Assembly (NCBI GenBank): GCA_949372805.1
Contig: CASIBH010000021.1
Coordinates: 1 to 36,186, forward strand
Source of the DNA: an uncultured Flavobacteriales bacterium
Lineage (GTDB): Bacteria > Bacteroidota > Bacteroidia > Flavobacteriales > BACL11
Direction of reading: 5' to 3'
DNA length: 36,186 nt
Part shown: one piece after another, positions 4,911 through 35,128 of the stretch
Numbering within the stretch: the first letter of the stretch is position 1
Layout of the letters: each line of letters starts with the position of its first letter
Translations under genes and position numbers: made by a program
The notes under the pieces: generated by a model
Seen by the model: the letters and a program-made list of their open reading frames with translations, nothing else
Databases searched by the model: none
Told to the model about the DNA's origin: nothing

Positions 4911-7328
4911 TTATTTTTTTTCTATGTTATCTTCCTCATAATAACCATATCCTCCACCATAACCATAACCATAACCATAACCATAACCATAACCATAACC
5001 ATAATTACCAACATTATGCTGAAAATCATTTATAATAATCTGAATATTATTAACATGTTTATTGTTGTGAAGATTGTTAACAGTTGTTAACGCTTGATAT
5101 TTTGTATAATTATGCCTAACCACATATAAATTTACATCTGCATTTTTCATTAAAATAACCCCATCGGTTACAAGTCCAATTGGGGGAGTGTCAATTATTA
5201 CATAATCATATTCTTTATGTAATTGATTTATTAAATCTTTCATTTTTTTACTATCTAATAATTCTGCCGGATTTGGAGGAGTTGGTCCAGAAAGAATAAT
5301 TTCTAAATGTTCAACTTGCGTTGGCTTTATTACTTCTTTTAAAGATGCTTTGTTTATTAAATAGTTACTTAATCCAAGTTTGTTATCAGTATCAAATTCT
5401 AGATCTAATTTTGGTTTTCTTAAATCTGCCCCAATTAATACAGTTTTTTTTCCAGAAAGAGCAAATATAGATGCAATATTCATAGAGCAGAAGGTTTTTC
5501 CTTCACCTCCTATAGAGGATGAAATTGTAATTACTTTTTTTTCTTTATCAACTGCTAAATATTGAATATTTGTTCTTAATGATCTAAATGATTCAGAAAT
5601 AACAGATTTAGAGCTATTAGCGACAATTAATCCAGAATCCCTATCGTTATGACCAATTAGTCCAAGTATTGGGATATTTGTGTGCTTTAGCAAATCCTGC
5701 TTACTTTTTATTGTAGTACTAAAGAACTCCTTAAGTGAAATAAATAACACTGGACAAAGTATTCCAAATAATAAAGCAAAGAAATATGTAACTGTTTTTT
5801 TAGGAGATACCGGTTTTTCACTATCTAGTCTAGCATAGTCTATCACTTTATGATCTGATTCTGTTCCAGCTTTTGCTAGTGAAGCTTCATATTTTTTTCC
5901 TTGTAAATACGTGAGAGTCTGCTCACTGTAAGCGAATTTTCTTTTTAGTATGATAAATTCTTTTTCATATTCTGCTAAAGAATTTATTTTTTTATTAAAG
6001 GTATTTTGTCTTTTAAATAAATCTTGCTCATAAATTTTTGATGAAGCAATTAAATTCTGAATATTTTCTATCAAATTTCTTTTTGTATTTAATATTTGAG
6101 ATATGACAGAAATATAGCTTGGGCTTTTAGCAGTATTAGTGAGTTCTAAATCATTTTTCTTGGCATATAAATTTAATAATTGATTAATTAAAGTATTAAG
6201 TTCAGGATTTAGTATGCCCATTGATGTTGGTGATACAATATTATTAACATCTTTATTTTCTTGTAAATATTTTAAAATTGATCTGTAGTATCTTATTTTA
6301 GTTTCTTGTTCAGCAAGAGTATTGTCAATTTTTTGTTTTTGGAAGAATGCGCCATACTCTTCTTCAATTGTTGCTAATTGTGGGTGTTTGTTTTTAAATG
6401 TTTCAAGTTTGTTTTCAATTAAATCTAATGAATCTTTAATGATATTAAGTTGCTCATCAATAAAGTTAATAGTATTAACAGCCATTATATTTTTGTCTTT
6501 TAATCCATTTTTAATATAAAGTTCTGTTAGTTTATTTAAGAAACTAATATTTTTGCTAGGGCTTTCTCCAGTAGTCTTTAGTTTTAATACAGATGTTTCC
6601 TTGTTTATGGGGTTAATTGCAACCTCTTCAATGTACTTGCTGACAATTTTAGATCTTTGGTGTAATTTAAAAGTAAATTCTTTATCATTTTCTATTATTT
6701 TTTCTAAAGAAAAACTTGGACTTTTATTTATTAAGAAAGAGAAATTATCTGATTTAATTAGAGTGTTAAATTTAAAATCTTGACTCAAATCAAAATTTAT
6801 CTCTACATTTCTGTTAAGTTGATCTTTTTTGACATTGTAGGGGTTTTGATCATCAATTGATGATGAAAGATTAAATGTTTGATTATCTAAAATTTTCACT
6901 CTAAATTCGTTTCCAGTAATCTGTAAATGATTTGAGTCAATTAAGACTTCAAATGGTTTATTTAAGAATATTTCATTACTTTGTAGCAAGCCATGTTGAA
7001 AATAAGAAACGCCAAATTTTAGATCTTCAATTGCCTGATTAGTTAAACTAAATGATTTTAATACAACAATTTCATTATTGATATTAGTTTTTCCACTAAA
7101 CAGCTCCATTCCTTCAAGAATATTTTCAGCTCCTAGCTGAGTATTATTGTCATCTCTTATTAGTAATGTACTGGAAACACTAAAAGTTGGTTTAGTATAC
7201 CTGTTGTAAACAAATGCTATTAGAAAAAATAAAATAATTGAAAAAATAAAATAATGCCAATACTGAAGATATCGATATAGCAATTGTTTTGTGTCAATTG
7301 TTTCTTCTTTAAATTCTTCTTCCTTCAT
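4911..7328 (-). CDS. Wzc-type polysaccharide co-polymerase / tyrosine autokinase
   Basis: Inner-membrane protein controlling chain length and export of surface polysaccharide. Order: an N-terminal membrane helix (residues 28-46), a long periplasmic Wzz/GumC-like region with coiled coil, a second helix near 525-545, then a cytoplasmic BY-kinase domain. Walker A is GGEGKT at 605-610, Walker A' is LIGADLRKP near 629-637, and Walker B is YVIIDTPP at 707-714. The C-terminus (774-797) is the Tyr cluster: eight YG pairs followed by GGYGYYEE, giving 11 tyrosines that are expected trans-autophosphorylation sites. The YG pairs are encoded by a perfect 6-bp tandem repeat (see 4957-5004). It is 805 residues, usual for Bacteroidota. 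It follows the Wza-like gene by 2 bases, so the pair forms the export machinery. The rest of the capsule cluster is not in this window. Confidence 0.93.
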   Translation of the reverse strand: MKEEEFKEETIDTKQLLYRYLQYWHYFIFSIILFFLIAFVYNRYTKPTFSVSSTLLIRDDNNTQLGAENILEGMELFSGKTNINNEIVVLKSFSLTNQAIEDLKFGVSYFQHGLLQSNEIFLNKPFEVLIDSNHLQITGNEFRVKILDNQTFNLSSSIDDQNPYNVKKDQLNRNVEINFDLSQDFKFNTLIKSDNFSFLINKSPSFSLEKIIENDKEFTFKLHQRSKIVSKYIEEVAINPINKETSVLKLKTTGESPSKNISFLNKLTELYIKNGLKDKNIMAVNTINFIDEQLNIIKDSLDLIENKLETFKNKHPQLATIEEEYGAFFQKQKIDNTLAEQETKIRYYRSILKYLQENKDVNNIVSPTSMGILNPELNTLINQLLNLYAKKNDLELTNTAKSPSYISVISQILNTKRNLIENIQNLIASSKIYEQDLFKRQNTFNKKINSLAEYEKEFIILKRKFAYSEQTLTYLQGKKYEASLAKAGTESDHKVIDYARLDSEKPVSPKKTVTYFFALLFGILCPVLFISLKEFFSTTIKSKQDLLKHTNIPILGLIGHNDRDSGLIVANSSKSVISESFRSLRTNIQYLAVDKEKKVITISSSIGGEGKTFCSMNIASIFALSGKKTVLIGADLRKPKLDLEFDTDNKLGLSNYLINKASLKEVIKPTQVEHLEIILSGPTPPNPAELLDSKKMKDLINQLHKEYDYVIIDTPPIGLVTDGVILMKNADVNLYVVRHNYTKYQALTTVNNLHNNKHVNNIQIIINDFQHNVGNYGYGYGYGYGYGYGYGGGYGYYEEDNIEKK
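4957..5004 (-). repeat. hexanucleotide microsatellite encoding the Wzc Tyr tail
   Basis: Eight perfect copies of CCATAA on the plus strand (TTATGG on the coding strand), encoding (Tyr-Gly)8. Because the unit is 6 bases, slippage changes tail length by two residues without breaking the frame. Confidence 0.95.
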
Positions 7329-7330
7329 AT

Positions 7331-8110
7331 TTAATCTTTATTAAAGTTTAGATAAGCATTGAAAAGTACTGCAAAAGTTGTTAAACTAGAAAGGAAAAGT
7401 TGAGATTGAGATTTTTTCAAACCTTTGAATTTAAGTGGCTGTACATATACTAAATCCTTATTATTTAAATAATAGAAATTAGAAGAGAGTATTTTACTGT
7501 CAGTTAAATCAATAAAACTTACTTCTTTTTTATTATTTTTTGATCTAACTATTTTTACTTTTCTTAGATTTCCGTAATCATTTATGTCTCCAGCCATAGC
7601 TAGGGCATCAAATATTGTTAGATTTTCTTTGTAAACAGGATAGGTTCCTGCAAGATTAACTTCCCCAAGAACTGTTACCTCAAAGTTTGCAAGCTTAACA
7701 ATGACGTATGGATCAATCAAGTATTCTACAGCAGCTTTCATGATTTTTTCTTTTGCTTGCTCAAGAGTAAGATTTAATAAAACAACTTTACCAACCTTTG
7801 GGAGGTCTATACTTCCTTCTTGATTAACTGTAAAACCGTTAAGGTAAAGATTTGCTGCAGTTGTTGTACTTGAATTATTAGTATTAGTTTCAAGGTTAAA
7901 AATTTTATTTGATTCATCATTTCTACTAATTACTTTAACCATTAAAATATCTCCAATTTCAATATGATGTTTTGGAGGTAATGGAGACATATCCCAAGCA
8001 GCTTGGGTGTTATTGTTGATATATGTAATCTTATTAACTGGAGTACAAGAGAAAATTAAGCATGATAGGATACTTAAAAAGAAACAATATTTTGCTTGTA
8101 AATTTGTCAT
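7331..8110 (-). CDS. polysaccharide export lipoprotein (Wza-like, SLBB)
   Basis: Outer-membrane polysaccharide exporter partner of the Wzc-like kinase, which follows after 2 bases. The ATG at 8110 begins MTNLQAKYCFFLSILSCLIF followed by SC; the lipobox Cys22 makes it a lipoprotein. An upstream TTG at 8146 would add 12 residues in front of the signal peptide and is not preferred. The Poly_export domain covers about residues 40-135 (IGDILMVKVISR; VNQEGSIDLPKVGKV; LIDPYVIVKL). An SLBB-type repeat follows (VTVLGEVNLAGTYPVYKEN and DALAMAGDINDYGN). A C-terminal hydrophobic helix (LFLSSLTTFAVLFNAYL) is typical of the short Bacteroidota version at about 259 residues. The gap to maf is 39 bases. Confidence 0.9.
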   Translation of the reverse strand: MTNLQAKYCFFLSILSCLIFSCTPVNKITYINNNTQAAWDMSPLPPKHHIEIGDILMVKVISRNDESNKIFNLETNTNNSSTTTAANLYLNGFTVNQEGSIDLPKVGKVVLLNLTLEQAKEKIMKAAVEYLIDPYVIVKLANFEVTVLGEVNLAGTYPVYKENLTIFDALAMAGDINDYGNLRKVKIVRSKNNKKEVSFIDLTDSKILSSNFYYLNNKDLVYVQPLKFKGLKKSQSQLFLSSLTTFAVLFNAYLNFNKD

Positions 8111-8149
8111 GCTTAAAAAATTAGTCCACAAAGATAATAAAAACAAGGG

Positions 8150-33881: not shown

Positions 33882-34391
33882 ATTTAAAATATCAATAGGT
33901 ATTTCTACTTTTATTTCTTTTTTAACTTTATCTACTGATTTAATGAAAAAATCATTTAGTGGAAAACAAAAATCATATGTTTCATTTCTAACATATAATA
34001 GTTCTTGAGCAGTTTGCTTATTAATTTCATAAATTTCACCTAAATCTCCAAATTTTTTATCGACTACTTTGTAATTCATTAAAGTATTGCTAGATGATTT
34101 TAAATCATTAAAAATTAATAGCTTATTATCAATATAAACATCTTTTTTTAGAAGATGAAGAACCTCATTTTCAGAATTTAGTTCTGAAAACTTAACCAGA
34201 AAATTATTTTTCTTTATTTTCTTTAAGTCTTCAATAAAGAAAGGCACTAATCCGTTATCTATTTTAATAAATAAGTGTGTAGTATTTGAAGTATTAATAG
34301 ATATATTTTCAAAATTGAAAATAATTAATCCACCTTTGTATCCATGAAGTTTAAAAATTGATCCAATTAAGAAACAATCTTTAAGATTCAT
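33873..34391 (-). CDS. rimM: ribosome maturation factor RimM
   Basis: 172 residues; binds S19 and helps mature the 30S head. The N-terminal RimM barrel begins CFLIGSIFKLHGYKGGLIIF. The C-terminal PRC barrel contains LMNYKVVDKKFGDLGEIYEI and ELLYVRNETYDFCFPLNDFF, with a terminal KKEIKVEIPIDIL. It lies directly downstream of rpsP, the usual partner. Its ATG is 3 bases past the in-frame stop of an unshifted rpsP (34395-34397), or overlaps the stop of the frameshifted one (34388). Confidence 0.93.
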   Translation of the reverse strand: MNLKDCFLIGSIFKLHGYKGGLIIFNFENISINTSNTTHLFIKIDNGLVPFFIEDLKKIKKNNFLVKFSELNSENEVLHLLKKDVYIDNKLLIFNDLKSSSNTLMNYKVVDKKFGDLGEIYEINKQTAQELLYVRNETYDFCFPLNDFFIKSVDKVKKEIKVEIPIDILNLN

Positions 34392-35128
34392 TTATTAATC
34401 TTTTTTTGATTTTTCTTCAGCAACAGGAGCTTCTTCAGCAGCAGGAGCTTCTTCAGCAACAGGAGCTTCTTCAGCAGCAGGAGCTTCTTCAGCAGCAGGA
34501 GCTTCTTCAGCAGCAGGAGCTTCTTCAGCAGCAGGAGCTTCTTCAGCAGCAGGAGCTTCTTCAGCAACAGGAGCTTCTTCAGCAGCAGGAGCTTCTTCAG
34601 CAGCAGGAGCTTCTTCAGCACAGGAGCTTCTTCAGCAGCAGGAGCTTCTTCAGCAGCAGGAGCAGTTGCAGCGTTTAATTTATCTGCAATAGATTTTGCT
34701 CTTTCAGAGTTTACTAATTTTTCAGCATCAATTTTAGATTTATGAGCATCCGCATTAGCTTTATCTACATTTGTTTTTTGATCAGTGATTTTTTGTTCTT
34801 TAGAACTCATCCAATCGTTAAATCTTTTTTCAGCCTCTTCTTCATTAAATGCACCTTTTGCAACACCCATAAGTAGATGTTTTTTCATATATACTCCTTT
34901 ATGAGATAGAATTGCTTTAGCGGTATCAGAGGGTTGTGCTCCTTTCATTAGCCAATCAACTGATTGGTCAAAATTAATATCTATGATTGCTGGGCTAACA
35001 TTTGGATTGTAAAGCCCTAATTTTTCAATAAACTTACCATTTCTTGGAGCTCTTTGATCTGCTACTACTAAATGATAAATTGGTTTTCCTTTTTTACCGT
35101 GTCTTTGTAATCTAATTCTTGTTGCCAT
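34388..35128 (-). CDS. rpsP: 30S ribosomal protein S16 with repeat-expanded tail (frameshifted tail as read)
   Basis: Residues 1-85 are a normal bS16 core: MATRIRLQRHGKKGKPIYHL, then VVADQRAPRNGKFIEKLGLYNP. Residues 86-160 are a Lys/Asp/Ala-rich linker typical of Bacteroidota S16. The tail is built of AAEEAP/VAEEAP hexapeptides encoded by 18-bp repeats. Near 34619-34621 one repeat unit has 17 bases, which switches the frame so that the rest reads as repeated LLLLKK and ends at 34388. In the unshifted frame the tail would continue as (A/V)AEEAP and end EEKSKKD at TAA 34395-34397 (about 244 residues). The acidic version is surely ancestral. S16 is a 30S assembly protein. rimM follows immediately. 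Confidence 0.93.
   Translation of the reverse strand: MATRIRLQRHGKKGKPIYHLVVADQRAPRNGKFIEKLGLYNPNVSPAIIDINFDQSVDWLMKGAQPSDTAKAILSHKGVYMKKHLLMGVAKGAFNEEEAEKRFNDWMSSKEQKITDQKTNVDKANADAHKSKIDAEKLVNSERAKSIADKLNAATAPAAEEAPAAEEAPVLKKLLLLKKLLLLKKLLLLKKLLLLKKLLLLKKLLLLKKLLLLKKLLLLKKLLLLKKLLLLKKLLLLKKNQKKINK
34421..34653 (-). repeat. 18-bp tandem repeat array in rpsP tail
   Basis: Thirteen consecutive units of the form CA(G/A)CAGGAGCTTCTTCAG on the plus strand, followed by a partial unit (34654-34671). Most units have CAGCAGG, and the CAACAGG variant occurs at units 1, 3 and 9. Unit 12 (34619-34635) is 17 bases long, reading CACAGG, i.e. a CAACAGG unit that lost one A. All three frames of the coding strand are open across the array. 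Confidence 0.95.

Follow-up and report, generated by a model that had tools for sequence, protein, structure and literature searches.

The closest described counterpart of the locus examined here is Wzc of E. coli, for which passages of PMC11986026 propose that the tyrosine two positions before the active-site tyrosine (i-2) occupies a pocket and is the next to enter. The ratchet proposed in those passages has the tail phosphorylated in C-to-N order until the octamer falls apart. According to excerpts of PMC8285477, no single tyrosine of the Wzc tail is essential, and the share of octamer drops as Y-to-E changes accumulate. In the Porphyromonas gingivalis kinase Ptk1, six tyrosines within 16 aa are autophosphorylated, as summarized in part of a review (PMC8863745). 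A contrasting kind of variation is found in Akkermansia, where a 9G-to-10G frameshift truncates a Wzc-like protein, as given in an excerpt of PMC13055324. Among the open-licence PMC papers listed by our searches, we found no description of kinase tails built from YG repeats.

Here we describe such a tail. The window, meaning the whole 36,186-nt stretch of DNA analysed, is contig C21 of a 1.17-Mb, 25-contig, 64%-complete assembly (G000), and its relevant features are as follows.

4911..7328, minus strand: wzc-like gene of 805 aa, an open reading frame with a Wzz/GNVR-type chain-length part, a BY-kinase domain and a Tyr-rich tail
4914..5006, minus strand: last 31 residues of the 805-aa protein, NYGYGYGYGYGYGYGYGGGYGYYEEDNIEKK, with 11 Tyr
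4956..5003, minus strand: (TATGGT)8 array encoding (YG)8, in codon phase and in frame
7331..8146, minus strand: wza-like gene for polysaccharide export, immediately upstream of wzc, with PF02563, PF22461 and PF10531 above cut-off

The original prediction had read this gene as Wzc-like, with eight perfect repeat units encoding (YG)8 inside the C-terminal tyrosine cluster and each hexamer step gaining or losing one tyrosine in frame, and these points are borne out. Against TIGR01007 (polysaccharide biosynthesis tyrosine autokinase), where the cut-off is 108.05, the 805-aa protein reaches 185.6 bits, and its match in the PDB is E. coli Wzc (7nhr, E=2.5e-47); against the narrower Wzc equivalog NF008568 it reaches 202.1, below the cut-off of 1068. 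Pfam cut-offs are exceeded for PF13614 (AAA_31) and for PF13807 (GNVR), the latter placing a fused chain-length (Wzz/GNVR) part in the kinase, and PF02706 falls just under its cut-off (25.4 vs 25.5 bits). Walker A (GGEGKT), Walker B (VIIDTPP) and EX2RX2R (ESFRSLR) motifs could all be aligned to Wzc. The Walker A' consensus of BY-kinases is DxDxR. The window kinase reads LIGADLRK at this place (residues ~630-638), keeping the second Asp and the Arg and replacing the first Asp with Gly; the same Gly is found in 83 of 112 scanned YG-tail open reading frames, from which duplicates had not been removed and of which 11 had no locatable motif. By these matches, the gene encodes a Bacteroidia-type Wzc (PCP-2a, BY-kinase) with a Tyr-rich YxY tail.

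All 52 genomes of the taxonomic family give a match to the window protein. In G038, G039 and G043 the top match is only weak (E about 1e-8), G039 having in addition a fragment of a tail where a contig ends; in G015, G020 and G023 the top match is to a more distant relative. From this family we took 48 orthologue loci and searched them with a parser for at least (YG)3; 45 of them, the window included, carry (YG)3 or more. The remaining loci are one that ends before the tail (L044) and two from a single genus (L056 and L058) whose Tyr-rich tail, YGYAYGY.YGYYGYY, is without (YG)3. The longest uninterrupted YG run spans 3-10 units, five being the commonest length (20 of 45). Of the three runs with 3 units, one lies at a contig end (L064) and another in a sequence containing undetermined bases (L055).

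The DNA beneath these runs is far less uniform. Synonymous interruptions in relatives had been named beforehand as an observation that would speak against slippage tuning, and we found synonymous codons (TAT/TAC, GGT/GGA/GGC/GGG) mixed in 41 of the 45 arrays, a count in which the window is included. The four single-type arrays have 8, 6, 5 and 3 units, the longest being that of the window, and a genome of the window's own genus (G002) spells the same eight YG with mixed codons. With codons mixed in most arrays and (YG)3 recurring at nearly all loci, it is as protein that the repeat is kept; present in 45 of 48 orthologue loci, it does not arise by chance at the protein level.

Across the wider class, stretches of (TAYGGN)4, which code for (YG)4, are present in 287 of 395 sampled genomes, compared with ~8 for a reversed control pattern. 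By eye, 20 of the 21 loci inspected (out of 30 fetched) are kinase C-termini, the exception being L069; a strict motif test flagged only 5. Judged from these sequences, the YG tail appears to be an ordinary conserved feature of such kinases. We also sought a second genome of the window species, in a search that may leave out records of the window's own genome. The best gene matches in other records were 81% (L095) and 92% (L101) identical, making 92% the closest identity, and the tail DNA of L095 and L101 is that of G002 and G001, respectively, with which they seem to be identical records.

We then considered what within these tails is held constant. Among 67 loci selected by homology without regard to YG, a tail was obtained from 62, and 58 of these tails are distinct. 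All 58 contain at least 4 Tyr, and of their 569 Tyr-Tyr spacings 77% equal exactly 2. A wider set of 101 tails was selected in part for YG, every member being Tyr-rich by construction (6-18 Tyr per tail); in this set 0.767 of 1018 spacings equal 2, vs 0.249 ± 0.012 in shuffled tails. The intervening residue in this wider set is Gly in 726 of 787 YxY, and within a (YG)n tail nearly every Tyr has an i-2 partner. Four more distant kinases from the same family of genomes (L132-L135) have a near-strict YxYxYxY pattern with varied x, running for up to 13 steps; here Gly is often replaced by N, S, K, A, R, D or E with the alternation of Tyr kept. Since tyrosine stays at every second residue where Gly changes, selection seems to act on the YxY register known from the published phosphorylation "ratchet" of Wzc and not on a DNA repeat.

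At the DNA level, the array occupies 4957-5004 in its TTATGG phase, and the perfect period-6 tract reaches 49 bp at its maximum (4956-5004), which makes it the window's longest perfect tract with a period between 5 and 9. Elsewhere in the 64%-complete assembly there is no (TATGGT)3, all six overlapping matches being the window array itself. For an array preselected for purity, the probability of eight identical YG units is 3.9e-4 from the window's Tyr/Gly codon usage and, with the same preselection, p = 0.006 from the kinase gene's own codons. The purity of the array is thus only modestly unusual, and that it is pure in the window lineage suggests that it expanded or was homogenised recently. 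Nine pure TATGGT units are present in the kinase tail of L116 (G115:C43), which belongs to another family of the class.

The window holds a longer tract of period 18 (107 bp) in the gene for ribosomal protein S16 (34388-35128, minus strand), whose EEAPAA-repeat tail is encoded by an array at 34413-34663 of ~14 copies of 18 bp. One unit is short by one base, shifting the remaining tail to LKKLLL repeats; the tail of the closest relative (L145) is in frame, and the change is either an assembly error or a real frameshift. Acidic, repetitive S16 C-terminal tails of variable length are found in L145 and L150-L160. A second S16-like stretch in the assembly (L162, G000:C10:14995-15459), 64% identical and with five internal stops, is either contamination or a decayed copy.

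We looked for traces of unit gain and loss both within arrays and between relatives. In the 42 arrays that have 4 or more units, pairwise unit identity is 0.366, vs 0.244 ± 0.023 from the Tyr/Gly codons of each array's own gene (0 of 3000 simulations), and the excess persists without the window array. With one array per genus, ten draws gave identities of 0.38-0.49 vs about 0.26, reached by 0-8 of 300 simulations. Singly, 4 of the 42 arrays are homogeneous at p<0.05. This excess fits past duplication of units, though local codon bias could also produce it. Identical units are not clustered within arrays (81 identical neighbours observed vs 81.7 in within-array shuffles), which counts against recent local slippage, as this would tend to cluster them.

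Between relatives, we compared unit number with fourfold-site difference for the 39 genes long enough, the resulting pairs not being independent. Unit number differs in 3 of 9 orthologue pairs at <25% difference, 6 of 12 at 25-45%, 82 of 118 at 45-55% and 373 of 514 at 55-65%. In one of the three differing close pairs (L034/L037), the interrupting residues differ and the tyrosine counts are nearly equal (13 and 14). The closest relative of the window (G001) has 7 YG to the window's 8, at 41% fourfold-site difference. Hypermutability of the tract should lead to differences in even the closest pairs, and the equality of six of the nine argues for slow change. The expectation that copy number varies among relatives therefore holds between species (3-10 units), but this variation tracks divergence; unit number changes slowly, on an evolutionary timescale.

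These observations bear on three other readings of the array. One is that selection acts on the protein, the uniformity of the array being due only to skewed Tyr/Gly codon usage, with which the modest, post hoc p-values of the window array, the small number of individually homogeneous arrays (4 of 42) and the lack of clustering of identical units all agree. Against it, unit identity across the family lies above the own-gene expectation in 3000 of 3000 simulations, even when the window array is left out, and we consider this reading unlikely. The YG stretch might also be mainly a flexible or sticky low-complexity linker in which the tyrosines are not the point, as its low complexity and the predominance of Gly among the x residues would allow. 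The retention of alternate tyrosines in L132-L135, where other residues take the place of Gly, argues against such a linker, as does the autophosphorylation of the six clustered tyrosines of P. gingivalis Ptk1 (reviewed in part in PMC8863745), and we give it hardly any credence.

The original prediction went further, in that a pure hexamer array would be hypermutable, so that YG counts would differ between cells of a population and tune polysaccharide length. Whole-unit steps do keep the frame, the window's eight units are the longest of the four single-type arrays, its closest species differs by one YG, and the tail of L116 is pure over nine units; moreover, more phosphates destabilise the E. 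coli Wzc octamer, so tyrosine number could matter (passages of PMC8285477 and PMC11986026). Yet synonymous changes interrupt nearly all arrays of the family, the closest pairs mostly have equal unit numbers, and the one-unit difference to G001 comes with a large fourfold-site difference. A fast slippage dial is not supported by these data and seems to us very unlikely, and the original interpretation as a whole is only partly supported.

The reading we favour, and regard as highly probable, is that the array represents, in DNA, a conserved (YG)n phosphoacceptor tail, working probably as in E. coli Wzc, whose units are occasionally duplicated or lost. In such a scheme, the tail would reach the active site of a neighbouring subunit and be phosphorylated one tyrosine at a time, starting at the C-terminus, with every YxY step bringing up the tyrosine that follows. 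Accumulated phosphates would dissolve the octamer, and a phosphatase would reset the tail. Selection would maintain tyrosine at about every second residue, units would now and then be duplicated or lost, probably through slippage or unequal exchange, and the purity of an array would later be broken up by synonymous mutations. We infer phosphorylation and the ratchet in Bacteroidia, and likewise slippage as the cause of unit change and any effect of tail length.

Two components of this scheme were looked for directly. The pocket residue E675 of K30 Wzc aligns with A746 of the window kinase (counted along the ungapped alignment), and a crude motif-offset rule applied to 102 kinases found Glu or Asp at the equivalent place in 0 of the 85 located; the pocket chemistry must therefore differ or lie elsewhere. 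With Ala in the window and no acidic residue among the kinases located, we dropped E675 as a link to the K30 tyrosine pocket. The Gly that replaces the first Asp of Walker A' also counts against carrying the E. coli model over unchanged. LMW-PTP and CpsB phosphatases were not found in the 64%-complete assembly, and they are present in 49 and 42 of the 52 family genomes, respectively. In both G001 and G002, an LMW-PTP gene with the same orientation as wzc lies ~24 kb past the wzc 3' end, a place whose equivalent in the window is off the contig end. Because these phosphatases are widespread in the family, a kinase-phosphatase cycle is plausible for the window lineage.

A more ambitious extension is that the Wzc tails of Bacteroidia serve as ratchet tracks whose length can evolve. 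Duplication of units would add or remove whole YxY steps, each lineage thereby setting through repeat number how many phosphorylations precede octamer release, and hence polysaccharide length; in pure-array lineages such as that of the window, this setting could also vary within a population. We think this decidedly unlikely. If tail length does set chain length, the Bacteroidia would offer a natural series of ~6 to 18 Tyr, nearly all in YxY, for testing the E. coli Wzc ratchet. If it does not, the locus shows that a repeat kept at the protein level can pass through a stage in which its DNA is a perfect microsatellite, here within a kinase tail.

Set beside known systems, the locus resembles each in part. 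It shares with P. gingivalis Ptk1 a BY-kinase with a C-terminal tyrosine cluster, a likeness by published description. Like simple-sequence contingency loci, it has a perfect short tandem repeat in a polysaccharide gene; unlike them, its hexamer stays in frame, giving no on/off switch of the reading frame, and the pure repeat is not maintained in the window's relatives (41 of 45 arrays mixed). The likeness to E. coli K30 Wzc (7nhr) extends from the chain-length part and kinase, with their Walker A/B and EX2RX2R motifs, to a Tyr-rich C-terminal YxY tail. It differs from K30 Wzc at the pocket residue E675 and the first Asp of Walker A', neither of which is conserved in the window kinase, and in the tail itself: where the aligned part of 7nhr reads YRYGHNHYGYSY, the window kinase has a regular (YG)n tail with 11 Tyr.
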